IMG/VR virus record: IMGVR_UViG_3300046799_000096
Location: 1-21,755 of that record
Reading direction: 5' to 3' (one strand)
Source: a virus
Length of the DNA stretch: 21,755 bases
Position numbers and translations under genes: made by a program. This document shows positions 3,769 to 20,848 of this stretch, piece after piece (positions within the stretch are counted from its first letter, which is position 1; each line of letters starts with the position of its first letter). The notes under the pieces are model-generated. The model made no database searches. It saw only the letters and a list, made by a program, of their open reading frames with translations, and was not told the DNA's origin.

Positions 3769-5852
3769 GCGCCGATCAGTCCATAAGCCGTAAGATCATC
3801 GATCAACGCCTTGACGTGCTCGGCGAGCACGGGAAGTGTCACTGAGCCCGTAACGAACGTCGTGCGCGTCGCCGTGCCGGTCGCCGCTGTCCAACCGGTG
3901 CGTTTGGCGATTGGCGTCGTGCCGCAGAACCCCAGACTGCCCGTGTTGGCGAGCGTGGAGAACTTACCCGACACCGAGCCTGTCGTGCCGATGGGGATAT
4001 AGTTGATGCCGGTGGCGTCAATAAAGCCAAGAGTCGTGGTCCCGACGACGAAGTTAAACCCGGCTCCGGTTGGAGTAACCAGATTGAAGTTACCCATGAA
4101 GTTGATGCCGGCGGTCCCAAGACCAGTCAGATCGAGATGTTTGGTCAGGTCCGTCGCGGACGCCGCCGTGCCCGTGAATTTCGCGCCAGAGCCAAGCGTT
4201 GTCAGGCCACTCGCGGAGAGGGTGCTGAACGCGCCAGCCACCGCGCCCGTTTGTCCAATAGGTATGTAATTGATGCCAGTGGTATCAAGAAACCCCTTGG
4301 CGGCTCCTCCCACGGTGAAGGCCAGTTGCGCGCCACCCGGCACGCTCAGGTTGATATTGCCGCCCTGATAATTCAGGCCCGCCGTCCCAAGGCCGTTCAA
4401 ATCAATATGCTTTGACAGGTCGGTCACGGAAGCCGCCGCGCCTGTAAATCTCGTCCCGGTAGAAGTTGTCAGGACGATACCCGGCACGACCACGGCGACG
4501 TTGCCCGTGGCGGTATTCGAAAAGGTTCCGCCGCGAACACTGGCGTTCACCATCAGCGCGCCCCACACGCCGGAAAGCGTGAGGTTGCCCACGACCCCGT
4601 TGCCTTCAAACGCGAGCGTGCTGTCACCAGCGGTCGAGTTTAGCGTGACATTCGATCCAATATTATTAGCCACCACCTGACATTCCCAGAATGCCGGTCC
4701 CATGCTGAACGCCGGGCCTTCAATGTCACATCCCATGATCTGGATCTGCGTGACCCTCGCGGTCGCGGCGTTTAGGTTGAAAAAGTTTATCTGTGAAAAG
4801 ACCGTGCTGGCGATGACCTTTACTTTCATCAGCAGGGTCACGGTCGCGTCGGTCTGAATAATGTAGTTCACATGCTCGACGTGACAGTTCACGAACTGAA
4901 ACTCTTGCGCCGACTGCCCGGCGCCAGCGACCATCCCGCCAATGAAAAGCAGCGCCCCGACCATGGGTCCGTTCTCGTTGAAATGGCAGTCGGTCGCGAA
5001 GAAAGTATTAGGAAGGATATCTCCAGACACGCCGCCGGTCGCGTAGATATAAGCCTGTGTGCCGTAGGTGCTGGTAAACCGACAGCCGGTCATTCGTAGT
5101 TCCGGCCAGGTATCCTGCACGACGTGATGACCGGATATCTGATCAGTATGGCAACCAATCATCCAACCGCAAATCCCCCCCGGCCCCACGGCTTTCCAGT
5201 AGAACCCGTCATAGGCATTATAAACGAGGACGTTTTCACAGCGAACCTGCAGACCCGTGTTGATATAAACTCCGGCCCCAGCGGTTGGCGCGGCCGTGGC
5301 ATTGGTCGTGACCACGAGGTTCCGCAAACAGGCGGACTTCAAATTGGAGCCAGACCCGAGTGTCACCGAGTTTATGTTGGCGTTGGTCAGGATGGATGAA
5401 CTTGGTGGTGATAAAGTCGTCGTGCTTCCAGCCGTTCTCAGGGAATTGGCGAAGAACGACAAACCCTCGAGCGTCACACCGCTCGGCACCGTGATCCCAT
5501 TCGGTAGGAAACAACACTTCCCCGCCGGGATGACGACGATGGAACCCTCCAACGCCATCGCCGCGTTGAATGCCGCCGTATCGTCAGTCACGCCATCGCA
5601 CATCGCGCCGTAATCCAGCACGTTCCTCACATCCGCCGCGCGATCCTGCGCCGATCTCGACGTGGTGCCGCCGGTCGCGGTGTAGAGGAGTGGGCCTGAC
5701 ACCGTCCCGCCCGTCAGCGGCAGGAACGGCCCGCCCCCGACCAGCGCGGCGTCGAGCGTATCGGCGTTGCTGTTCCAGAACGCGCCCCAGGAATCGTCAT
5801 CCGCGCCGACGACCGGCTTGAAGAGACCGAGGACGGGTGTGGTCGTGGCCAT
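3765..5852 (-). CDS. Tail spike with pectate-lyase-like beta-helix and C-terminal tandem repeats
   Basis: This is a 695-aa protein. I start it at the ATG at 5852, which overlaps the previous TAA (TAATG) and has AAAGG upstream, rather than six codons earlier. Residues 1-38 form an anchor segment (LGLFKPVVGADDDSWGAFWN) shared with the collar fibre. Residues 44-60 carry a PLTGGTVSG linker. Residues 76-98 match the start of the pectate lyase superfamily beta helix (RNVLDYGAMCDGVTDDTAAF), followed by repeated short strands to about residue 460, as expected for a right-handed beta helix. Residues 463-549 and 553-638 are two copies of a module of about 90 residues (FTG, then DLxKHxDLxGLGTAG, then GINYIPIG). 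The end (VLAEHVKALIDDLTAYGLI) is a helical trimerisation-type tail. Likely a trimeric spike that binds or cuts surface polysaccharide; catalytic residues cannot be assigned. Confidence 0.85.
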   Translation of the reverse strand: MATTTPVLGLFKPVVGADDDSWGAFWNSNADTLDAALVGGGPFLPLTGGTVSGPLLYTATGGTTSRSAQDRAADVRNVLDYGAMCDGVTDDTAAFNAAMALEGSIVVIPAGKCCFLPNGITVPSGVTLEGLSFFANSLRTAGSTTTLSPPSSSILTNANINSVTLGSGSNLKSACLRNLVVTTNATAAPTAGAGVYINTGLQVRCENVLVYNAYDGFYWKAVGPGGICGWMIGCHTDQISGHHVVQDTWPELRMTGCRFTSTYGTQAYIYATGGVSGDILPNTFFATDCHFNENGPMVGALLFIGGMVAGAGQSAQEFQFVNCHVEHVNYIIQTDATVTLLMKVKVIASTVFSQINFFNLNAATARVTQIQIMGCDIEGPAFSMGPAFWECQVVANNIGSNVTLNSTAGDSTLAFEGNGVVGNLTLSGVWGALMVNASVRGGTFSNTATGNVAVVVPGIVLTTSTGTRFTGAAASVTDLSKHIDLNGLGTAGLNYQGGNINLSVPGGAQLAFTVGGAAKGFLDTTGINYIPIGQTGAVAGAFSTLSASGLTTLGSGAKFTGTAASATDLTKHLDLTGLGTAGINFMGNFNLVTPTGAGFNFVVGTTTLGFIDATGINYIPIGTTGSVSGKFSTLANTGSLGFCGTTPIAKRTGWTAATGTATRTTFVTGSVTLPVLAEHVKALIDDLTAYGLIGA
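3939..4466 (-). repeat. Two tandem modules of about 90 codons in the tail spike gene
   Basis: Residues 463-549 (bases 4206-4466) and 553-638 (3939-4196) of the spike align along their length. Shared landmarks are RFTG/KFTG, AASVTDLSKHIDL/AASATDLTKHLDL, GLGTAGLN/GLGTAGIN, GINYIPIG in both, and GAFSTL/GKFSTL. The two copies are clearly homologous in protein but only moderately similar in DNA, so the duplication is old and under selection rather than a recent slip. Confidence 0.85.
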
Positions 5853-6370
5853 TATGCCGCCTTTGCCCAAACGCCGGGGGAACAGACATGAACCTGATCG
5901 AACGCCCGCTCGAGCGGCACGCCGAGGATGGTGCCGTAGCCGCGCGGACCGAACACGCCGCTGCCGAGGACGATCGTGTCGAACGGGGTGACCGCCACCA
6001 CCGGCTTCCAGACCCAGTCACCACGACCGTAGGGGCCGGTGCCGTATGGTCCCATGCCGTAGGGCCGGCTGGTCAACGCCAACGCCATGGCGATACCACC
6101 GGCCGGAATGCGCGCGATGTCATACATGCGGATCTCGATCGGTACCACGGTCGGCAGCGTGGCGATGAGCGTTCCACCGGTCATGGCATCGTAGAGCAGC
6201 ACCGTATCGATGACGCCCCAGGAGGCCGTGGCGGTGGGCCACGCGATGCTGGCGATGTTGCACAGCGTGGTGCCATCCGAGGCGTAGGCGAGCGTCGTGG
6301 GCCGCCGCGCGTAGCCGCTGACCGTGACCTCGACACCGGCGATGGCGAGGGCGACGAAAGCAGCGGTCAC
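5852..6370 (-). CDS. Tail accessory protein with three YG repeats (172 aa)
   Basis: The start codon is a GTG at 6370 that overlaps the previous TGA (GTGA). The TAA overlaps the spike ATG. The product is beta-rich, with VSGYARRPTTLAY (residues 17-29), SIAWPTATASWGVIDTVLLYD (41-61) and a three-copy YG repeat with period five at 104-115 (PYGMGPYGTGPYG). The SGYAR ... fPTATasWG pattern recurs in phage structural proteins encoded beside fibres. The exact role is unknown; a fibre-network or baseplate-like attachment protein is plausible. The nozzle-like protein carries the same type of YG repeat, which may mean the two contact similar partners. Confidence 0.65.
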   Translation of the reverse strand: MTAAFVALAIAGVEVTVSGYARRPTTLAYASDGTTLCNIASIAWPTATASWGVIDTVLLYDAMTGGTLIATLPTVVPIEIRMYDIARIPAGGIAMALALTSRPYGMGPYGTGPYGRGDWVWKPVVAVTPFDTIVLGSGVFGPRGYGTILGVPLERAFDQVHVCSPGVWAKAA

Positions 6371-6670: not shown

Positions 6671-7879
6671 TCAGACGACCCTCTGCATGACGACGCTGCC
6701 GTTGCGGTAGAACTGATTGACCGCGACGCCAGCGCCAGCCGCCGCCGCGTCGTTGGCCGCGTTGACCAGTGCCCCACTGGCGATCTTGTTGACCGTCACC
6801 ACGCCCGTTCCCGCCGGTGTCAGCGTGATCGACAGATCGGCCCCGGAGCCGGAACCCGCGATCGATGCCGCGCCTGTCGGCGTTCCCGTCGTGCCGGTAA
6901 TCCAGGCCAACCCCTGGCCCGCCAGCATGGTCATGGCGCGAGCATCGGTGAACGTAGCCAGCGTCGTGTCGACGCCGTGCAGCCACGTTCCTTCAGTCTG
7001 GAACGGGCCATACGGATATTGCGACGCGACGCCGGTGATGTCGCCGCTGGCGTAGAACGCGCGGCCCGTTTGCCCAACGCTGGCGTTAGGCTCGACATTG
7101 AATGCTATATAGGTCTTGACGGGGAAGCCCGTGCTATTCGCTTCACCTGAATGGGCAACAGAGAAAGCAAAGCCGACGTTCTTACCTTCGCCTCCGGTTC
7201 CCGACGCGACGTTCTTCTCTGGCACGAACAACAATCCGCCCGAGTTATTCCCGGGCAACGACCGATCACGTTTGAACCCGGCATCCACGCCCCGGTTGAC
7301 GTAGTTCAGTTCACCAATCCAACCGCTGAAGTTGGTTGTCGTATCAATTGGCGACTCACACTCGATCCAAAGAGCTTCAAAAGTAGTGAGTTGGGGCCTT
7401 ATCGCGGTCTCAGATCGGGTGACGATCGAAAGCGCCGTGTCATGTCCGGCGCCGGTCGCCGTGCTGATGTAGTCGATCCGATGTCCTGTTACCGTATTGG
7501 CGCCTGTGTTTTGTGCGATGAAATGATTACCCGCGATACCATTGGCCGGTGGCGCGCCAGTCGTTAATGAATTGATCTTAAAATTGAAATCCACGGTTTG
7601 ATTCGACTGTCTGGCGACCCACGCGGTTTGCAGGAACCCGCCTCCCACGTCATACGCGTAGCAGCCCAGGTCCTCGGACGCGTTCGTCACCAGTTGCCAT
7701 CTGTTGACGCCCGGGGTTTGGAAGTAAAGGCCTTTCCCCGTCCCGCCCGCCACGCCGTTGAATGCCAGGATCGGCGTTCCGGTGCCATCACCAAGCGTTC
7801 CGCCCGACGTGGGCAAAAACGCCGCGTTCAGGTCGCCGGCGAGCAACGCATCGCCGATCGCCCATGGATATCCGGTCAT
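6671..7879 (-). CDS. Tail fibre / receptor-binding protein (402 aa)
   Basis: The start is the ATG at 7879, which overlaps the TGA of the previous fibre gene (ATGA); the frame is open further upstream only as a shadow of that gene. The N-terminus, MTGYPWAIGDALLAGDLNAA followed by SGGTLGDGTGTP, is a typical entry segment of alphaproteobacterial phage fibres. The middle (about residues 40-330) is rich in G, T, N and aromatics with no helix runs, consistent with a beta-structured shaft or knob. The end includes SITLTPAGTGVVTVNKIASG and a short helix (LVNAANDAAAAGAGVAVNQFY) before VVMQRVV. I see no catalytic motif. It is flanked by other fibre genes, so it is probably part of the adsorption apparatus. 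Confidence 0.7.
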   Translation of the reverse strand: MTGYPWAIGDALLAGDLNAAFLPTSGGTLGDGTGTPILAFNGVAGGTGKGLYFQTPGVNRWQLVTNASEDLGCYAYDVGGGFLQTAWVARQSNQTVDFNFKINSLTTGAPPANGIAGNHFIAQNTGANTVTGHRIDYISTATGAGHDTALSIVTRSETAIRPQLTTFEALWIECESPIDTTTNFSGWIGELNYVNRGVDAGFKRDRSLPGNNSGGLLFVPEKNVASGTGGEGKNVGFAFSVAHSGEANSTGFPVKTYIAFNVEPNASVGQTGRAFYASGDITGVASQYPYGPFQTEGTWLHGVDTTLATFTDARAMTMLAGQGLAWITGTTGTPTGAASIAGSGSGADLSITLTPAGTGVVTVNKIASGALVNAANDAAAAGAGVAVNQFYRNGSVVMQRVV

Positions 7880-9306
7880 GCTGTTAATCCTTGCATTTCC
7901 GCATCCGACAAAAGGCGCGGCCAGTATTGAACCCGCCGCAGATAACCGCTCATTTGCTCGCTGAAAGACGCCGGGACCGTCCCGAACAGCGTGACGCCAT
8001 TTGTCGCCAGCACCGCGTACCCCGTCGCCAATGGCGCCGCCGCGATCGTGCCGCCGTTCAGGCACATCCTGGCGGACCCAGGGGACCACCCGGACGCGAC
8101 TTTCGTAATGGCGTTGGCCGTTACCGTGTTGGCGGTCGCGCAAAAGCCGCCATCATATTGCACCATGACCAACGATGACGCCTCATACATGGGCGACCCA
8201 GCCCCCGCTGCCGTTGGGCCGATGACGCGGCTGTTCTTCCCGGTCATAATGGCGTCAAAGTTCACGAACTCCGCGAACCACGTCCCGCCCGGAGACGCGA
8301 ACCACGGCGACATGTTCGCGGGGGAAATGGTGCAAATATCGACCTGACGCGCCGCCGCACCCGACGTGGTCGGAATATACGACGTTGGGAACGTTCCGAC
8401 CTCGACCTGCTGTCCCCAGACCCACACGCCGTCCACGTTATTGCCGGTAGAAACCGAGCCGCCGATCGTGTTGGTGGCTCCTGGCCGGATGTTACTGACA
8501 TAGGTTCCCGCGCCAGCCGATGACGTGGCATTGATCGAGCAACGATACCAACCGCCACCGATCAGGCGAATCGTCGCCGCCGCTCCGGCACTTTGCGAAT
8601 CGATCGTGCCATTGGACAGATTAAAGGTCGCGGACTGTCCGGTGCCAGTGAACCCGGTGTTGCCCAGTTCCATGTAAATGAAATTCATTCCAACCGGTTT
8701 GGCGTATAGTGAATAAACGTAAGGAGTGCCCGGCGCGCCGCCGAACGTCGTGAAAAACTGATGCACCGCGCTAAACGCACCCGGAATAAGCGCCATCGCG
8801 GTCGCCGCCCCGGATGGGGCGGTTCCGACGTTCTGCGTGATGCCGTCCACAGACCCGCTTGGAACCGAGCCGGCGAGCCAGTTAGTTGAGGGAAACGCGA
8901 TATTCGTCCGCGCCTCCTCGATCAGCAGCCCGCGCGACACACCGCCCGCGTAATCCCAGCGCGGCGTGTTGATCGCGGCGGTTTGCACGATGCCGCTCGC
9001 GTCGGTGTATGTCGCGGTCGAGGCGCGGCTGAACGTGACGCCCGCCGGCATGGTGCCGGAAGACATGAAATTGAGGTCGAGCGTCTTACCAGGAGGACCA
9101 CCGCCAACCGGCGTGCTACCGCCACCGGACTGGGACACCATCTGGCGGCTGAAGTGTTTGCACCAGCCCATCGGGCTGACCGGGCCAATGACCTTGCCGC
9201 AGGAGCGAGGCGGGACGAAGAAGCGGCAGTAGCCGCATTTCTCCCTGCCCCCGGCATCGGTATAGCGCGCGGCGCTTTTGGTGACCCGGTGGACGACGAA
9301 GCTCAT
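7876..9306 (-). CDS. Lectin-like tail fibre with N-terminal four-cysteine HiPIP-like module
   Basis: This 476-aa protein is ATGA-coupled at both ends. Residues 1-52 hold a compact module with Cys24, Cys27, Cys36 and Cys49 (C-x2-C-x8-C-x12-C). It has a Tyr at 15 and the block CGYCRFF ... GPVSPMGWCKHF, which closely follows the high-potential iron-sulfur protein pattern (CxxC ... C ... GWC). A glycine/serine linker (about 57-72) leads to a fibre part: TFSRASTATYTDASGI (91-106), then RGLLIEEARTN (125-135), a pattern common in phage lectin-like fibres. The C-terminal half ends SGYLRRVQYWPRLLSDAEMQGLTA, as in LamG/concanavalin-like domains. Likely role: a virion fibre that binds a surface glycan. 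Whether the module carries a 4Fe-4S cluster, zinc or disulfides cannot be read from sequence. Confidence 0.8.
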   Translation of the reverse strand: MSFVVHRVTKSAARYTDAGGREKCGYCRFFVPPRSCGKVIGPVSPMGWCKHFSRQMVSQSGGGSTPVGGGPPGKTLDLNFMSSGTMPAGVTFSRASTATYTDASGIVQTAAINTPRWDYAGGVSRGLLIEEARTNIAFPSTNWLAGSVPSGSVDGITQNVGTAPSGAATAMALIPGAFSAVHQFFTTFGGAPGTPYVYSLYAKPVGMNFIYMELGNTGFTGTGQSATFNLSNGTIDSQSAGAAATIRLIGGGWYRCSINATSSAGAGTYVSNIRPGATNTIGGSVSTGNNVDGVWVWGQQVEVGTFPTSYIPTTSGAAARQVDICTISPANMSPWFASPGGTWFAEFVNFDAIMTGKNSRVIGPTAAGAGSPMYEASSLVMVQYDGGFCATANTVTANAITKVASGWSPGSARMCLNGGTIAAAPLATGYAVLATNGVTLFGTVPASFSEQMSGYLRRVQYWPRLLSDAEMQGLTA

Positions 9307-9971
9307 CCGAACGATACCAGTTCAGCGCGAAGCGGTGCGCCAGAGTAATTGGATTGCTGGACCCACAGATTTGCCCTGGTCACCACCTGCTGCCACTGGG
9401 CATCCGCCTGCGCCGCGCGATCGTCGTCCAGCTCGAACAACGCGCCGTGCTTGATCACGCCCCAAAGGTAGACCGCGTAAAGCTGTTCCAGGATCGGATT
9501 GGTGTCGGAGGGGAGGAGGAGAGGCTTCGGCCGCGCGTACCACTCCATCAACACCTGTTGCGGCATCCAGGCGGGGTCCGGCGGGTCGGGGAGGACGGGG
9601 TGGGGGAGAAACTCGATACAGTCCCCCGTCAGCCTGTAGGCCGTGCACACCTGCCCAACCGCGCCAACCACGGCGCCTTCCATCCATGCGCTGGAATACG
9701 CCCCGGTCCAGTGCCCACTCCAGGCGTCCTTGAGTTCGAGCAGCTCGCCACTGGTGGCGTCACGGATCGACGCCATCGTGGCGAAGTCAGCCGGTAGGGT
9801 GATGTAGGCGGCGTCGATCGCCTGCGTGCCAGACGTGATCATGCAGCGGGCACGCAGCGTCTCGGCGATCTCCGTTTCCACCATCAGGACCCAGCCGGGA
9901 ATCAGAGAGGCGACGTCTCTCCGATTCAGCCAGTTCTGAACATCATCGACGAGCTGCTGATAAGAGGCCAC
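9303..9971 (-). CDS. Head-tail adaptor protein (SU10 adaptor type)
   Basis: The 222-aa product starts with a GTG at 9971, three bases after the previous TGA, with a weak AAGAAG site upstream. The N-terminus, MASYQQLVDDVQNWLNRRDV then LIPGWVLMVETEIAETLRAR, is the typical helical start of the adaptor family of short-tailed phages (SU10 adaptor, functional counterpart of T7 gp11 and P22 gp4). ITLPADFATMASIRD (about 57-71) and a helical C-terminus (LEQLYAVYLWGVIKHGALFE, then QADAQWQQVVTRAN) fit the same fold. Twelve copies would join the portal to the nozzle. Unusually, the nozzle-like gene is not next to it: about 7 kb of fibre genes lie between them. Confidence 0.8.
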   Translation of the reverse strand: MASYQQLVDDVQNWLNRRDVASLIPGWVLMVETEIAETLRARCMITSGTQAIDAAYITLPADFATMASIRDATSGELLELKDAWSGHWTGAYSSAWMEGAVVGAVGQVCTAYRLTGDCIEFLPHPVLPDPPDPAWMPQQVLMEWYARPKPLLLPSDTNPILEQLYAVYLWGVIKHGALFELDDDRAAQADAQWQQVVTRANLWVQQSNYSGAPLRAELVSFG

Positions 9972-10632: not shown

Positions 10633-10944
10633 TTACAGTTTCGACCTGTCGTCGGTTCGGAAGACGCAGTTATCCGGGTCGTCCAGCCAGGCATTCAACG
10701 CCTTCTCGTCGTCGGTAATCCCCAGTTTCCGCAGGCGGTTCCAGACCACGAGCGGGATGCGGGCGACGTGGACGGTGTCGCGCCGCACCAGGGGGTCGAA
10801 GTCGGACGCGATCTGTTTGGCGCTCTCGACGATCGCTTTGGTATCCTGCGAGTGGACGAACAGCAGCGTGCCGTCGGCCTCCCGCTCCACCTCGGTCAGG
10901 CGGCGTGACGAGGGGTTGAAGGACGAATACAGAAGGTTACCCAT
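10633..10944 (-). CDS. Hypothetical head-region protein (103 aa)
   Basis: I start at the ATG at 10944 (MGNLLYSSFNPSSRRLTEVE). The frame is open further upstream, but that part lies opposite the HNH gene's start and looks non-coding. The TAA is ten bases before the next ATG. A VHVARIPLVVWNRLRKLGI block (about 58-76) followed by DDEKALNAWLDDPDNCVFRT (78-97) is a pattern I associate with small proteins encoded next to capsid genes in short-tailed phages of proteobacteria; their function is unknown. No membrane segment or enzyme motif is visible. A virion or assembly role is inferred from position. Confidence 0.65.
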   Translation of the reverse strand: MGNLLYSSFNPSSRRLTEVEREADGTLLFVHSQDTKAIVESAKQIASDFDPLVRRDTVHVARIPLVVWNRLRKLGITDDEKALNAWLDDPDNCVFRTDDRSKL

Positions 10945-11029
10945 GGGCGTATGCCATGTTGGAAACGGAACGCCACCGGGTGTGATACCCCGGCGACATT
11001 CCCGGCCATGGACCTTGGTGGAGGCCGTG
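10945..11029. other. Divergent gap between the HNH gene and the 103-aa gene
   Basis: These 85 bases separate two divergently oriented starts, so they would need to hold any promoter for the plus-strand HNH gene. The ribosome site of that gene, GGTGGAGG at 11017-11024, is clear. I see no convincing -35/-10 pair on either strand. Confidence 0.4.
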
Positions 11030-11521
11030 ATGGCCATGAACAAACTGCCCGATATCGACTTCATCCGCGAGTGCCTGGATTATGATCCCGACACCGGAAT
11101 ATTCCGATGGCGTGAACGACCCCGTTCGCATTTCGTCAGCGACAGGGGTCATCGGCAATGGAATGGCAAATTCGCGGGGAAACCAGCGGGATCGCGTTCC
11201 CGTCCCGGCGGCCATGCTTGTTGGGTCATCCGATTGTCTGGTCATCTTTGGAGAGCCCACCGCCTCGCGTGGCTCATGATCCATGGGGCCGACCCCGTTC
11301 AAGGGATCGACCACATCGACGGAGACCTCTTGAACGATCGGATCAACAACCTCGATGTCAAAGGTGTGACCCTCAGCGGGAACAGGCGCGGTTACGATGC
11401 CCGCGTCGTGGTAGACGGGAAATCGCATTACCTCGGATATTTCAAGACGATCGAGGAGGCCGCCGGAGCGCGGCGAGATGCCGCCGGCATGCCGCCTGGA
11501 GAGTTCGTCCGTCATAAGTAA
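11030..11521 (+). CDS. HNH endonuclease with AP2-like DNA-binding domain, opposite strand
   Basis: This is the only supported plus-strand gene. The start is the ATG at 11030 (GGTGGAGG five bases upstream); the ATG at 11036 is an alternative. The 163-aa product has a YDPDTGIFRWRERP entry (18-31), then HRLAWLMIHGADP (77-89), GIDHIDGDLLNDRINNL (92-108) and an AP2-like end (YDARVVVDG, KSHYLGYFKTIEEA at 122-144). This is the layout of HNH-AP2 homing endonucleases of phages. The stretch that normally follows NR-x2-NL, with the QN-x2-N residues, appears to be missing: NLD runs straight into KGVTLS. It may therefore be impaired. It lies convergent to the capsid gene and antisense to the structural operon, as expected of a selfish insertion. 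Confidence 0.85.
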   Translation: MAMNKLPDIDFIRECLDYDPDTGIFRWRERPRSHFVSDRGHRQWNGKFAGKPAGSRSRPGGHACWVIRLSGHLWRAHRLAWLMIHGADPVQGIDHIDGDLLNDRINNLDVKGVTLSGNRRGYDARVVVDGKSHYLGYFKTIEEAAGARRDAAGMPPGEFVRHK

Positions 11522-14349: not shown

Positions 14350-15801
14350 TTATCGCTCTTGTCGGTTTGGCGCGAGGAGACCGCCGCCGCCCAGCATCAG
14401 GCCGGCGAGGCCGTAGCGGCGGATGATTTCCATCGTGGCGGGATCGAAGACAACAACGTTGTGGCTGCCTTCGCCCGCGCCGCGGCTGCCCTGGTCGAGG
14501 TAGCGGATGCCGGGGATGCCGGCCTTTTGGAGTGTGGCTGAAACGTCGGCGGCCCTGGTCATCTTCATGTTCTTATCGAGAGACAGCGCGCCGTAAGCGG
14601 TCGATCCGGGGTTTCGCATCCGTAGATCGCTGAAGCCCTGGTCGCGAAAGAACTTCTGGACATCTGGATGCTGCTCTGACAGCGGCTTATCCCAGTGCAG
14701 GAACCGCTCCGGGTCCGCGTGGACACGGACCTCGTACATGTGGCCGGTTGGCTTAGGCATGGCGCTCAGTTTGTCCTGAAGCGCCTTGATGTTCCGTTCG
14801 TGCGGCGCGGTCGCCGCGTTTACTTCAGGGCTCATATAATCAAAGCCCTTCGCCTCCAGGGCGGCCGCTTTTTCATTACCAGCCGCGATCTCCTTCAAAA
14901 TGGCGTCTTCCACCGCTGTCTTCTCCGGCGACTGAAACTTCGCGGCGAGCAGATCGCGATAGCGTAATCCAACCGCTTCCGCTTCTCCGGCGTAATGGCC
15001 CATACCGTAAGCCTGCCCGCCCTCGCCCGTGCCGATCGCACTGTCCCTGAACTCTCCCAACGGGTTCTTTGGCGTCGGATCGAACTTGTGCGGAGAGCCG
15101 TGATAGGTCGTGAAGCCAGAAGGCGGTTCAGGAACCGGCTCTGGGCGACCTTGGTATGGCCGCACCCGCTGAAAGATTTCGCGGTTCGGCCCGGCGCCCG
15201 TAATCCGTTGTCCCGAGAGCGACCTGGCATCCGGATACTGTTCAAGCAGCGTGGCGCGCAGTTGCTTCATGGCCCCCGCGCCCAGGCTGTTCGCCCCATC
15301 GGGTGACTGGATGTCCGCGATGTGCAGTTCCCCCGTCTGGGGATCCCATCTCGTATCGACGGTTCCAATATGTTCGCCGGCCGGGTTCCTGACGGTATAC
15401 GCATGAGCACCGGGGACGGTCAGATCAGCGTCACCGGACATTGGCCGCAGATTGCGCGGATTGACCCGCTCCAGACTTAGCCCTGGCGGCCGGGGCCCGC
15501 CCCCGCTCGACGTGGTCCCCATCGCCACGCCCTCGGCGGTCTGACGCGTCGCGTCCAACAGTCCGCCACGCGTCGGATGGCCGCCTTCCCAGACCTGTCC
15601 GCCTTCCCACAGACCCCTGTCGATCGCGTCCCGTTGTTGCTTCGCGATGTAATCCGAGACCTGTCGGTAGACCTGGCCCGTGGCCTGGGCGAAGGCATCG
15701 GCCCGCGGATCGGGCGCGAGAGGACCGCGCTCGTCGGGCGGGGGCGGGATCAGCAGCGGCTGAACAGACCGCTCGTCATCGGGGAACAACAAAGACGCCA
15801 T
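14350..15801 (-). CDS. Two-domain protein with ADP-ribosyltransferase-like C-terminus
   Basis: The ATG at 15801 follows the previous TAG by six bases, with GGAG upstream. In the 483-aa product, residues 130-205 form a first domain (HAYTVRNPAGEHIGTVDTRW, then LHIADIQSPDGANSLGAGAM, LSGQRITGAG), reminiscent of acetyltransferase-like domains in phage polyvalent proteins. Residues 230-463 match the ADP-ribosyltransferase-like family of phage polyvalent proteins: YHGSPHKFD (233-241), IGTGEGGQAYGMGHYAGE (256-273), MYEVRVHADPERFLHWDKPL (355-374) with SEQ after it, and a GIPGIRYLDQGSRGAGEG end. Candidate active-site residues are His234, Tyr270 and Glu376. Encoded between portal and scaffold, it may be packaged and ejected to modify a host target, as T4 Alt is; the target is unknown. 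Confidence 0.8.
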   Translation of the reverse strand: MASLLFPDDERSVQPLLIPPPPDERGPLAPDPRADAFAQATGQVYRQVSDYIAKQQRDAIDRGLWEGGQVWEGGHPTRGGLLDATRQTAEGVAMGTTSSGGGPRPPGLSLERVNPRNLRPMSGDADLTVPGAHAYTVRNPAGEHIGTVDTRWDPQTGELHIADIQSPDGANSLGAGAMKQLRATLLEQYPDARSLSGQRITGAGPNREIFQRVRPYQGRPEPVPEPPSGFTTYHGSPHKFDPTPKNPLGEFRDSAIGTGEGGQAYGMGHYAGEAEAVGLRYRDLLAAKFQSPEKTAVEDAILKEIAAGNEKAAALEAKGFDYMSPEVNAATAPHERNIKALQDKLSAMPKPTGHMYEVRVHADPERFLHWDKPLSEQHPDVQKFFRDQGFSDLRMRNPGSTAYGALSLDKNMKMTRAADVSATLQKAGIPGIRYLDQGSRGAGEGSHNVVVFDPATMEIIRRYGLAGLMLGGGGLLAPNRQER

Positions 15802-16228: not shown

Positions 16229-18951
16229 TGGGGGCCTCCCGGCGAGGGCAGCGGTGGCCCACCAGGGCCGAACAGCGGCAGACCAGCCGCTCTCGCCGTA
16301 AGCTGGCCGTAAGCTGATGGCATTTTTCCCGTCGCGAGGGACTCGCGGATGGCGTTGGCGGCCTGGGGGTTGATGGGGCCGGCGGGTAGCGTGGGAGGAC
16401 GTTGTTGGGGAGAAGGCATCATGGGCGGCCTCGGCGGCCCGGGGGGCATCATCGGCATGCCCTGGGGGCCTTGAGGGGGTTTGGGCGGTGGCGCGCCGAC
16501 CGCCGGAGGTTGGGGGCTGGTGGGTGGCGGGAGATCGGACAGCAGACCCACCGCCGGGGCGTTCGATTTCATCGCCGCTTTGAACTCGTCGAGCGAGGGG
16601 ACGATCATGCCGGACGTGGTGCCCGCCACCCACGCCTTCACCCACGCGTCGAGGGCGGCGCGGTCCCGCTCGCGATCGTCCTCCAGGAGGAGGGAAGCGC
16701 GTTTGGTCTGCTGATCCGCCCTGGTGTTCTCGATATCGGCGTTGGTCTTCTTGTTCTGCACGTCGGCCAGGATGAGGTCGGTGTTGGGCGGCGGCGGCGG
16801 CGTGGGGGGTGGGGCGAAGTCGGGCGGGAGGGCTTTGAAGTAGGAGCTGATGTCGGCGATGTTCACCGTCTCCAGCATCCTGGCGAGGGTATTGCGATAT
16901 TCCGGCAGGCCGACGAGGGGGTTGGACATGCCGCCCTGCTGGATGATCTGCTCCTGCTTCTGGGCAATGGCGGAGAGCATCTGGAGACGCTCCTGGGGCA
17001 TCCCCTTGCCGCCGACATTGACCGAGGTCTCCCACTGCGTGGCGAGCGCGCGGGGGTCGATCGGGATCCACTTCTGACGGATCCGGATGACATTGGGGCG
17101 GTCCTGCTGGCGGGCCAGCATTTTCAGAAGACCCTTATACAAGGGGGCCAGACCGGTCTCGGCGAGCGTGCGGGCCACCATGTCGAGGCGGTCCTGGGCC
17201 GCGGAGGATTGTTGAGAGACAGCTATGGGCGCTGTTGACTGGAGTTCGTCGACGGTCAGGCCAGACGAGGCCCGCGTGATGCCGGTGCGTGATTCCCGGA
17301 TGGTCTCGAGGACCTGCATGACGGGGAGCGCTTCCTTGCCCATGAACGGCTTGGTCAGCTCCTGCACGGCGCCTTGCTGCGCCACGCGAATGATCGAGCC
17401 AATGGCGGTCTGGCGGGTGTCGGCGAGATTGGCCTGGCCCACGACGACGGCCGTCCTCGGAAACATGCTCTGCCCGAGACTGTCGAGCACGCCGCGCATG
17501 ACGCGGCTCTCGATCCGTTGCAGATCCATCACCATGTCGGCCTGGGACTGGCCGATCACCCTGCCGGGCTCGCGATAAGGGGTGAAACAGGACAGGGGGA
17601 TCTCGTCCGCGCGCTCCCACGAGACGAGGGTCTGGGACGCGCCGAGGAGATGGACGTGCAACAGTTCCGAAACATTATCGCCGTCCGCGTCGCAGCGGAT
17701 CCAACCCTCGACGTGGCGCACGATCGACTGGGACTTATCGTTGGGCGGGCTCCCCGCGACATTATGACCCTGCGCGCCGGAGCGCGCGATGAGCTCGGTC
17801 CGCTGTCTTTGGGTGGTGCCGCGGCCGGAGGAGAGATTGGCGAGGATCTTGTCCTCCGGCAGGCCGGCCTCGATCAGGTCGGAGACGGTACTGTCCTGCA
17901 CGATGAAGAGGGCGGGGGTTTGTTCGACGGACGCGGCCGAGGGGTCGATCCAGACGCATTCGGCGAGGACGTGGGAGACCTGGGGCCACGCTTTCGTGGC
18001 CGATCGGGTGAGCGTGGCGCTCCAGTATTCGGCGGGGGCGCCTTGCTGGAGATACATGCGGCCCTCGGGGGTTTTGGCGAGGGCCTGGGTTTCCGCCGGC
18101 GTCATGGGGCGGCGGACGATGCGGGAGGCTTCGATACCGGGCTCGGAGAGCAGCATCTGGAGTTGGGGAAGAAGCAGACCGTGGGCGACCTCGGTCCTGG
18201 TGTGCTTCAGGGACCCCCAGTGCCACCTGACCCAGCCGGCCTTGCGGGTCAGGGCGTCGAGCAGGGCGTCGTGCAGGATCGTCCAGCCGGGATTGGCGGT
18301 GAACAGCGCCCAGCGCGCGTAGTCCGTCGCCTGTCTGGCCAGCGCGGTCGCCAGCTGGTCGTCGGCGGCGGTGACGTGATCGGAGGAGAGGGGTTGGAAG
18401 GAAACCGGGTCCTCCACGCCGGTGAAGATGCGCAGCATGGACGGCAGCGTCTGGCGGATGGTGTCGCGCACGACGGTCAGGGTGATGTTGCTGCGGCCCT
18501 CGATCTTCGGGGCGTCGGGCTCACCCGCGTAGTAATTCGAGGCGGTGACGCGCTCGCGCGAGAGATACGCGTCGTAGTTCTGGGCGGCGCGGAAGTAAAA
18601 CCGCGCGACGGCGTTGATCTCCACGTCCGTCTTCCCGAGACGCTCGAAGACGATCTCCTGGGACCAGGGAGAGGCGGTGGGGCGTTGCGTGGGGCGCAGG
18701 CCGGCGGCGTAACGGCGGAGAGGGGCGGGAAGCGCCTGGTCCGCGTCGGGCGGGTCATCGTCATGGGAGGGCGGCAGCAGGAACGCCAGCATCTGGTTGG
18801 AGGGTTGTGAAGATGCGAGAGGGGTGGGCGTCATCCCCTGGGGGATCAGGCCGGGGATCGGCGGCAGAGGGGTGGGGACGTTGGTGTTGGTGATCTGTTG
18901 GGGCGCCAGCAGACCCTGGGACAGAGAGGGGGATGCGAGTGTCTGGCTCAT
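16225..18951 (-). CDS. Portal protein
   Basis: I start at the ATG at 18951 (MSQTLASPSLSQGLLAPQQI), which overlaps the TGA of the HNH gene (ATGA). The 908-aa product has a disordered proline-rich N-terminus (1-95). The portal core follows: a helix with NYYAGEPDAPKIEGRSNITL (139-158), VVRDTIRQTLPSMLRIFTG (160-178), then a crown and clip region including HVEGWIRCDADGDNVSELLH, CFTPYREPGRVIGQSQADMV and a stem helix (QRIESRVMRGVLDSLGQSMF). The last ~200 residues are proline/methionine-rich. The 'EGRS ... lPsmlRIFtG' pattern is that of P22/SU10-like portals. A dodecamer at one vertex forms the DNA channel. Length is at the large end for the family, because of the tails. Confidence 0.93.
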   Translation of the reverse strand: MSQTLASPSLSQGLLAPQQITNTNVPTPLPPIPGLIPQGMTPTPLASSQPSNQMLAFLLPPSHDDDPPDADQALPAPLRRYAAGLRPTQRPTASPWSQEIVFERLGKTDVEINAVARFYFRAAQNYDAYLSRERVTASNYYAGEPDAPKIEGRSNITLTVVRDTIRQTLPSMLRIFTGVEDPVSFQPLSSDHVTAADDQLATALARQATDYARWALFTANPGWTILHDALLDALTRKAGWVRWHWGSLKHTRTEVAHGLLLPQLQMLLSEPGIEASRIVRRPMTPAETQALAKTPEGRMYLQQGAPAEYWSATLTRSATKAWPQVSHVLAECVWIDPSAASVEQTPALFIVQDSTVSDLIEAGLPEDKILANLSSGRGTTQRQRTELIARSGAQGHNVAGSPPNDKSQSIVRHVEGWIRCDADGDNVSELLHVHLLGASQTLVSWERADEIPLSCFTPYREPGRVIGQSQADMVMDLQRIESRVMRGVLDSLGQSMFPRTAVVVGQANLADTRQTAIGSIIRVAQQGAVQELTKPFMGKEALPVMQVLETIRESRTGITRASSGLTVDELQSTAPIAVSQQSSAAQDRLDMVARTLAETGLAPLYKGLLKMLARQQDRPNVIRIRQKWIPIDPRALATQWETSVNVGGKGMPQERLQMLSAIAQKQEQIIQQGGMSNPLVGLPEYRNTLARMLETVNIADISSYFKALPPDFAPPPTPPPPPNTDLILADVQNKKTNADIENTRADQQTKRASLLLEDDRERDRAALDAWVKAWVAGTTSGMIVPSLDEFKAAMKSNAPAVGLLSDLPPPTSPQPPAVGAPPPKPPQGPQGMPMMPPGPPRPPMMPSPQQRPPTLPAGPINPQAANAIRESLATGKMPSAYGQLTARAAGLPLFGPGGPPLPSPGGPQ

Positions 18952-19436
18952 GTCACATAGCTCCAGGCGGTTCCAGCTTTGATCTGACCTATAAGCTGGC
19001 GACAAACTGAAAACCGCGTCGCGAGCACACGGTGTTTTTCACCGGACGCGCGGATATGACGGATATATTCCTCGGTCAGTTTTGAGTTTACATGGTTGAC
19101 GCCGAGGGGTAGCCGCGCACGACCACGACGAAACATATCGGCTTTGTTTTCGCGCCCTGTTCCCCAATACAAATGATCAGGATTCACACACGAAGGCACG
19201 TCACAGTGATGACAAGCCTGAAGATCCAGGGATGGACGCGGCCTGTCGTGAAGCCGTAAGGACACATGCGTCGCCAAAAGTTGTTTAGGGTGCGATCCGC
19301 CAGCACTGATAACGCCGTAGCCCTTGCACAGACCACCGTTCCACAACCAACATCCGCTGTTTGGCTCAGGTAAAACATAAACCCAAAAACGATCTTCCAA
19401 TGTTCCACGAATACCGCGATGACCGACGTTCTTCAT
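18948..19436 (-). CDS. HNH homing-type endonuclease between terminase and portal
   Basis: The start is the ATG at 19436 (GGGGGA upstream), overlapping the TerL TGA. The stop overlaps the portal ATG, so both ends are ATGA. The 162-aa product has LEDRFWVYVLPEPNSGCWLW (13-32), GGLCKGYGVIS (34-44), a first HNH element (ATHVSL, 56-61), ACHHCDVPSCVNPDHLYWGT (75-93; His76/His77, Asn85, His88) and ENKADMFRRGR (96-106). The end (SKLTEEYIRHIRASG, then LATRFSVCRQLIGQIKAGTAW) is the helix-turn-helix-like tail common in phage homing HNH enzymes. HNH proteins beside terminase genes can also take part in packaging cleavage, but the added DNA-binding tail favours homing. Its G+C is about 50-55% by hand count against 65-70% in the portal. 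Confidence 0.88.
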   Translation of the reverse strand: MKNVGHRGIRGTLEDRFWVYVLPEPNSGCWLWNGGLCKGYGVISAGGSHPKQLLATHVSLRLHDRPRPSLDLQACHHCDVPSCVNPDHLYWGTGRENKADMFRRGRARLPLGVNHVNSKLTEEYIRHIRASGEKHRVLATRFSVCRQLIGQIKAGTAWSYVT

Positions 19437-20848
19437 ACCAAATCCCCCTGAGCGAGGCTCATATGTATTGGCGTGCTGGAGTGAAGTCCGCTCGTCATTC
19501 CCGACCCAACACCCATCCCATGCTGAACAAACGTCATACACAAAGCGTCCGCGTAATCACATGAGGGGAGCCCTCTGCTTCGCATCGACTGCTTGCTTTC
19601 AACCAAAAGACGCCCATCACTCAGGAAAGAGTATCTGGGCATCAATAAATCATCTCTTAAACGATCGTGGCGTGGTAATCTGACGTTGCGGCCTCCCAGC
19701 CATTCCTTACACCGAACCCAGAGTTCATCACGTAATCTGGCATACTGGCCCGTGGTGCTCGATGTTTCAGCCACGTTCACACCCAGGACGGGAACATCCA
19801 TCTCATTCAGCCGATCAACGACGCCCGCGCCTATCCCGATGACATCAACGCAAATAAGCGTCGGTTTCACCGTTTGCAGGTCATATTCAGCTTTTATGGC
19901 TCCCGCCAGCATCATCGTATCGAACTGATGCCACGCGCGCGGCATTTCCGTTACCACGTTTCCACGACGTTTTATGAGGACACTAGAATCAGTCCCGAAA
20001 CGAGCCACATCGCAGCCCCAATACTCAGGAGTGGTCATGTCTATCTCGATATCGCGCAGCATGGCGCTATCGACGAGATCAGCGCCGATCAGCGTGTTGT
20101 CGTCGGCGAGCGGAAACTCGCCGAGGACACGAACGCGAAAAGCATTACTGTCCATGCCGTATCTGTTGGCGACCTCGTTCACGAAATCCGACGTAACGCG
20201 TGATGAGGAAGCGGAAGAGACCTTTTGGGTATACCAGCGGTCGCGCTCCATCATGTGGGCGCGGTAGAAGAAGCCGGTACTACGTGTCGCGTTGCCGATC
20301 AGCAGCGTTATCGCGCCGTGAGAGGACATGCTGCCGGAGGCGGCCTCGAAGACCGATTCGGGAATGCCCGACGCCTCGTCGGCGATGAGAAGAACATGGG
20401 CGCTATGGAGCCCGGCCATCGCCTCCGGCGTGTCGGGCCTGCTCGTTCGCGCGGTGACGAAACATTCCTGGTCCGCTTTAAGCGTCACGCGATCAGACCG
20501 AATATCCCACAGATCGCGCCAGCCGGAGGGGAGAATGCTCAACCATTTAATGAACTCGGGCCACAGCGCGTCGAACAACTGGGATGACGATGGCGCGGTG
20601 ATGGCGACCTTGAACGGCGCGCGGGTGCAGATGAACCATACGCACAGCCACGCGGCGAAGCACGTCTTGCCCACGCCATGGCCGGAGCGAATAGCCAGGC
20701 GGGTATGGCCGCGCGCGACCGCGCGCAGTGCCTCCAATTGCCACGGATCCGGCTCCGCGCCGAGAATGTCCCGCACGAACGCGATCGGCGCGCGGGCATG
20801 CTTTTCAATCGCCGCGTGGAACGGGTTGGTCTGGAGGGTGGCACTCAT
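19433..20848 (-). CDS. terL: Terminase large subunit
   Basis: The 471-aa product starts at the ATG at 20848 (MSATLQTNPFHAAIEKHARA); the ribosome site is weak. The ATPase part has Walker A SGHGVGKT (55-62), Walker B LLIADE (153-158, catalytic Glu158) and coupling motif IGNATR (184-189). The nuclease part has GCDVARFGTDSS (278-289, Asp280), LICVDVIGIGAGVVDRL (331-347, Asp335) and SCDYADALCM (429-438, Asp431/Asp434). It pumps DNA into the procapsid through the portal and cuts concatemers. All key residues look intact. The C-terminal half is clearly lower in G+C than the N-terminal half, which is unusual within one gene. Confidence 0.97.
   Translation of the reverse strand: MSATLQTNPFHAAIEKHARAPIAFVRDILGAEPDPWQLEALRAVARGHTRLAIRSGHGVGKTCFAAWLCVWFICTRAPFKVAITAPSSSQLFDALWPEFIKWLSILPSGWRDLWDIRSDRVTLKADQECFVTARTSRPDTPEAMAGLHSAHVLLIADEASGIPESVFEAASGSMSSHGAITLLIGNATRSTGFFYRAHMMERDRWYTQKVSSASSSRVTSDFVNEVANRYGMDSNAFRVRVLGEFPLADDNTLIGADLVDSAMLRDIEIDMTTPEYWGCDVARFGTDSSVLIKRRGNVVTEMPRAWHQFDTMMLAGAIKAEYDLQTVKPTLICVDVIGIGAGVVDRLNEMDVPVLGVNVAETSSTTGQYARLRDELWVRCKEWLGGRNVRLPRHDRLRDDLLMPRYSFLSDGRLLVESKQSMRSRGLPSCDYADALCMTFVQHGMGVGSGMTSGLHSSTPIHMSLAQGDLV

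Follow-up and report, generated by a model that had tools for sequence, protein, structure and literature searches.

The question raised by this locus is why the tail fibre gene of a phage should begin with a four-cysteine module of the kind found in high-potential iron-sulfur proteins (HiPIPs). The HiPIPs known so far are soluble proteins that carry electrons, and no report of a HiPIP domain in virions was found in the open-licence literature. The window, that is, the whole stretch of DNA analysed, is a 21.8-kb virus record (21,755 nucleotides) from a soil phage. Its structural gene block is of the podophage type and lies on the minus strand. The block contains the genes for the terminase (20848-19433, homologs found by search), the portal (19005-16225, phrog_1216), the SU10-type capsid protein (12680-11544), the SU10-type adaptor (9303..9971, PF24175, E=6.9e-16), the fibre considered here (7876-9306), a gp80-like fibre protein (5852..6370, PF23140, E=2.3e-13; 39% identity to gp17 of phage phiM5), a pectate-lyase-like protein among the fibre genes (5870-3765), and the collar protein (3255-2314). 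A 483-aa protein encoded between the portal and the scaffold (14350-15801, minus strand) has YHGSPHKF...YGMGHYAG motifs, which we take to recall polyvalent ADP-ribosyltransferase domains. The ORFs at 18948-19541 (minus strand) and 10757-11521 (plus strand) resemble HNH-type homing endonucleases (CHHCDVPSCVNPDHL; IDHIDGDLLNDRINNL); one of these HNH-like ORFs is on the opposite strand, within the structural block.

The fibre ORF encodes 476 amino acids (9306-7879, minus strand), and its ATG at 9306 overlaps the TGA of the adaptor gene (ATGA). The layout described by the sequence-only reading, C24-x2-C27-x8-C36-x12-C49 with an upstream Y15 and the triplet G47-W48-C49, is exact in every detail in the translation. 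The codons of the predicted cluster ligands are, in order, Cys24 (9235..9237), Cys27 (9226..9228), Cys36 (9199..9201) and Cys49 in G-W-C (9160..9162), and Tyr15 at the conserved HiPIP tyrosine position is encoded at 9262..9264, all on the minus strand. The module was earlier placed at 9154-9306; it is indeed there, but this span covers residues 1-51, whereas the conserved module, backed by phmmer, the NCBIfam Iro profile and conservation in IMG/VR, runs to approximately residue 57 (9136..9306, minus strand). It is followed by a Gly/Ser-rich linker (residues 58-74, 9085..9135) and by the fibre part, a lectin-like beta-sandwich region that varies between relatives (residues 75-476 and the stop codon, 7876..9084), both on the minus strand. 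Cysteines were said to be otherwise rare in the protein, which is loosely true, but there are four more in the fibre part, at positions 256, 325, 389 and 415. The number of cysteines beyond the module in relatives varies from 0 to 7.

By sequence comparison, residues 1-57 of the fibre are clearly related to bacterial HiPIPs. The best PDB match of residues 1-64 in a phmmer search is PioC (6xyv, E=2.6e-8), with identical spacing of the cysteines, and another HiPIP, 3h31, is a weak match. A profile built from phage sequences only (A1) retrieves PioC at 1.5e-10 and 3h31 at 4.1e-4, followed by weaker matches to 1hlq (0.084) and 1isu (0.96) that are still above the background, where all non-HiPIP matches lie. 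A PDB search with the profile of alignment A5, in which two PioC sequences of Rhodopseudomonas stand beside phage modules, is not independent for PioC, as relatives of PioC are inside the profile. The single NCBIfam match of the window module is Iro (NF041615), with E=9.3e-9 and 35.5 bits against a cut-off of 100; the same family matches all 23 members of the diverse set. The Pfam HIPIP family (PF01355) matches 19 of the 23 at E up to 1 (best 3.1e-5) and the window at E=0.03, scoring 15 bits against the gathering cut-off of 22. Because of this score we call the module a HiPIP-related domain, although the limit is a cut-off and not a biochemical feature. The PHROGs database yields a weak match to phrog_38300 (E=0.037).

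The kinship with HiPIPs proposed earlier is thus borne out by independent sequence searches and by the diagnostic residues, all of which are conserved. A PROSITE-type HiPIP signature is C-x(6,9)-[LIVM]-x3-G-[YW]-C-x2-[FYW]; the window module fits it, and most cyanophage copies do not, deviating at its final aromatic residue. The (8,12) cysteine spacing occurs in 95 of 99 distinct pattern matches, one of which, a 74-aa ORF lacking the upstream tyrosine (L012), is a chance match. Two further candidates were rejected: a Klebsiella phage match (H3) lies off any HiPIP-like ORF, and matches in Salmonella Jerseyvirus genomes fall within an exonuclease that does not have the HiPIP layout. PioC used as a query in viral contigs produced no matches, this query reaching close relatives only, and no bacterial or prophage copy of the module was found in a scan of genome contigs with the module.

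The only invariant positions among the 23 diverse phage and bacterial sequences of A5 are Y15, C24, C27, C36, G47, W48 and C49. According to the literature, what marks a HiPIP is a pocket lined by conserved aromatic residues that holds four cysteines (PMC10879576). Homology tells about descent and not about the bound metal, so the HiPIP scaffold might have been retained with the four cysteines binding zinc or forming disulfides in the virion. We regard this as improbable: neither zinc ribbons, zinc knuckles nor any other zinc-binding family matched the module in Pfam, NCBIfam or PDB, the spacing is that of PioC, and the retained tyrosine and GW are expected of a [4Fe-4S] pocket rather than of a zinc site. 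AlphaFold2 assigned low confidence to this region, with pLDDT 45.6 for the module alone (shallow alignment of 45 rows), and about 32 for the module in the full-length fibre, where residues 1-68, including most of the linker, are below 50.

Searches of IMG/VR gave 35 close and 58 wider loci with the module, and a looser scan gave 149 stretches, the cyanophage class included. The module is under purifying selection: the uncorrected pN/pS over 57 codons is 0.39, and the cysteine codons show synonymous changes. The many overlapping spurious ORFs of the window could suggest that the pattern arose by chance or from a spurious frame in GC-rich DNA; with pN/pS below 1, E-values near 1e-8 and conservation over dozens of contigs, the probability of this is negligible. 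Proteins with nearly the same module range from 244 to 898 amino acids in total length, and the window protein and that of locus L003 are 98% identical in the module and 33% identical in the C-terminal part. The module is constant while the fibre behind it changes, which is the pattern of a fixed attachment region to which different receptor-binding regions are joined.

Behind the module, the protein is a tail fibre or receptor-binding protein of lectin-like type. This C-terminal part matches the tail protein family phrog_5939 (E=3.4e-58) and other tail proteins in PHROGs. The predicted structure is confident only in parts of residues 69-476; its first Foldseek matches are the fibres of Pa193 (9b45, E=1.4e-8) and E217, followed by laminin-G, galectin and CBM40 lectin folds. 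Together with the position after the adaptor, these matches uphold both the fusion to a tail fibre and the lectin-like nature of the remainder that had been read from the letters.

The adaptor gene is upstream of the HiPIP fibre wherever it is visible among the loci. A search starting from the adaptor identified 80 loci, of which 76 have readable downstream DNA; these counts are per locus, so that some near-identical phages are repeated. In 46 of the 76 loci the HiPIP fibre gene follows the adaptor directly or with one gene in between; the other 30 have no HiPIP fibre in this slot and often carry a gp80-like gene right after the adaptor. The HiPIP-fibre slot is therefore optional, with approximately 40% of the related phages with readable DNA having no HiPIP fibre. 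In one locus (L027:3963-6168) a further fibre-like gene lies between the adaptor and the HiPIP fibre, and therefore the slot takes more than one cassette. The 44.6-kb contig IMGVR_UViG_3300043621_000102 contains two different loci with an adaptor and a HiPIP fibre (L013 and L020), one at each end; the contig may be a chimera, or the result of joining two phages.

On balance, we consider it probable that the module is a small HiPIP-family domain of the PioC/Iro type that is loaded with a [4Fe-4S] cluster in the host cytoplasm and forms the unchanging, virion-proximal knob of an accessory fibre that can be exchanged. Inspection revealed no export leader before MSFVVHR and no hydrophobic segment at the N-terminus, and the start codon overlaps the stop codon of the adaptor gene (ATGA); the fibre, lacking a signal peptide, would accordingly be synthesised in the host cytoplasm. 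Given the homology to HiPIPs, the host Fe-S machinery would then insert the cluster, with C24, C27, C36 and C49 as ligands and Y15, W48 and nearby aromatic residues as a shield. Since the HiPIP cluster lies buried and is more oxygen-tolerant than most Fe-S clusters, the domain would be suited to a virion. Gene order and the usual arrangement of fibres suggest that this rigid, oxygen-tolerant knob would connect the fibre with the particle close to the adaptor, the lectin-like part being swapped for receptor choice. The cluster itself may mainly stabilise a domain of about 50 residues in a place where disulfides cannot form; for such a structural role, which we infer by analogy, the precedent is the tail-tip Fe-S cluster of lambda gpL and of the R4C/RcGTA hub, which may serve tail assembly. 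Several points count against this scheme. The module scores below the Pfam cut-off, its predicted structure is of low confidence, and the gpL cluster is reported to be oxygen-sensitive. Known HiPIPs are exported electron carriers, unlike the fibre module, although export to the periplasm, usually by the Tat pathway, is typical of HiPIPs and does not define them. Moreover, a role in fibre docking leaves the copies on portal and head-type proteins partly unexplained.

A survey of phage proteins, which the sequence-only reading had proposed, indeed revealed both fused and stand-alone copies. Apart from the fibres, the module forms residues 1-52 of portal proteins encoded directly after the terminase (L306:3977-6277; L307:3243 onward), and it occurs inside a polyvalent-type protein of more than 2,100 amino acids with an SNF2 helicase (L035:1474-1620). 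All fused HiPIP-like examples come from uncultured contigs. Stand-alone proteins of about 66 amino acids are encoded in 74 freshwater-type virus loci (L093-L166) and in Synechococcus phage S-SRM01 (QPX48026.1, L036:3977-4180). Two other occurrences are a HiPIP-like C-terminus on an unannotated protein of about 130 amino acids in a 484-kb phage (LR756508.1, L325:1501-1683), and, on a short viral contig (L323:623-919), a small ORF whose layout is HiPIP-like (ASVSYTD..CEFCKHY..CAEVVGEISVAGWC).

The stand-alone proteins of the cyanophage type start with, for instance, MKSFQEFLSE or MKTFKEFLFE, and internal protein I of T4 starts with MKTFKEF. In T4 IPIII the capsid-targeting sequence is formed by the first ten residues; positions 4 and 7 matter for targeting, and positions 8 and 10 for cleavage (PMC9026906). 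This N-terminal pattern was observed in none of the 20 other annotated proteins checked around the S-SRM01 gene. This T4-like start suggests that the HiPIP-like protein is packaged in the cyanophage head. Together with the fusions to a portal and to the SNF2 polyprotein, it could mean that HiPIP-like modules act as effectors or cargo tags delivered into the host along with the virion, the fibre being one carrier among several. However, fibres remain outside the cell, and here the external lectin-like part comes after the module, which makes such a role very improbable. A broader conjecture, offered with low confidence, is that phages have repeatedly recruited HiPIP as a virion component (a fibre knob, a portal N-terminus, an injected or head-packaged protein), the cluster being redox-active in at least some of them during entry or host takeover.

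For the fibre itself, the corresponding possibility is a working redox centre, a cluster of HiPIP potential that during attachment and entry would sense conditions in the periplasm or carriers of the host envelope, or exchange electrons with them. The nearest relatives, PioC and Iro, are electron carriers, similar modules recur on unrelated virion-type proteins, and the function-linked tyrosine, GW and four cysteines are all retained. The same residues, however, are equally needed just for holding a cluster; neither a redox gene nor a partner protein was identified in the window, and about two fifths of the related phages with readable DNA manage without the module. We therefore think this unlikely and retain the structural knob as the preferred interpretation.

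On these observations, the particles of some viruses may contain iron-sulfur clusters. Should the cluster prove real, it would be a second kind of Fe-S cluster in phage particles besides that of the gpL type, and with a domain of about 55 residues one could test why virions carry such clusters. The infectivity of the progeny would then be linked with the Fe-S supply of the host and with oxygen or iron conditions.

The closest known system at the level of the domain is PioC of Rhodopseudomonas palustris, which has the same C-x2-C-x8-C-x12-C pattern, the GWC motif and a tyrosine within one residue of the same position. However, PioC is a free periplasmic electron carrier, whereas the phage domain is the N-terminus of a fibre that has no export signal. 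Iro, the iron oxidase HiPIP of Acidithiobacillus, is the best NCBIfam match, but it is not an equivalog and has a different location. At the level of the particle, the analogous proteins are lambda gpL and the hub proteins of RcGTA and R4C, which are likewise virion tail proteins with a [4Fe-4S] cluster, a cluster that is predicted in our case. The gpL cysteines (173, 182, 205 and 212) have another spacing and belong to another domain, and gpL is a siphophage hub, not a podophage fibre; no match of the module to the gpL-type domain was observed in Pfam or PHROGs, and the cysteine spacing is unlike the one published (PMC10721106). One account reports the tail-tip Fe-S cluster of gpL, R4C and RcGTA as essential to the assembly of the tail, another as functionally uncharacterised (PMC10276861, PMC10721106), and the gpL cluster is reported to be oxygen-sensitive, its role not settled (PMC10721106). 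The fibres of Pseudomonas phages Pa193 and E217, best in fold for the C-terminal part, are myophage fibres. Finally, the nearest isolated phage with a named host is the LUZ24-like podophage phiM5 of Sinorhizobium, whose terminase is 51% identical to that of the window; going by this kinship, the host of the window phage may belong to the Alphaproteobacteria. The gp17 protein of phiM5 was considered as a HiPIP protein and rejected, since it is gp80-like. Unlike the window, phiM5 has the gp80-like protein directly after the adaptor, with no HiPIP fibre in between, and according to its record this protein is detected in the particle proteome.
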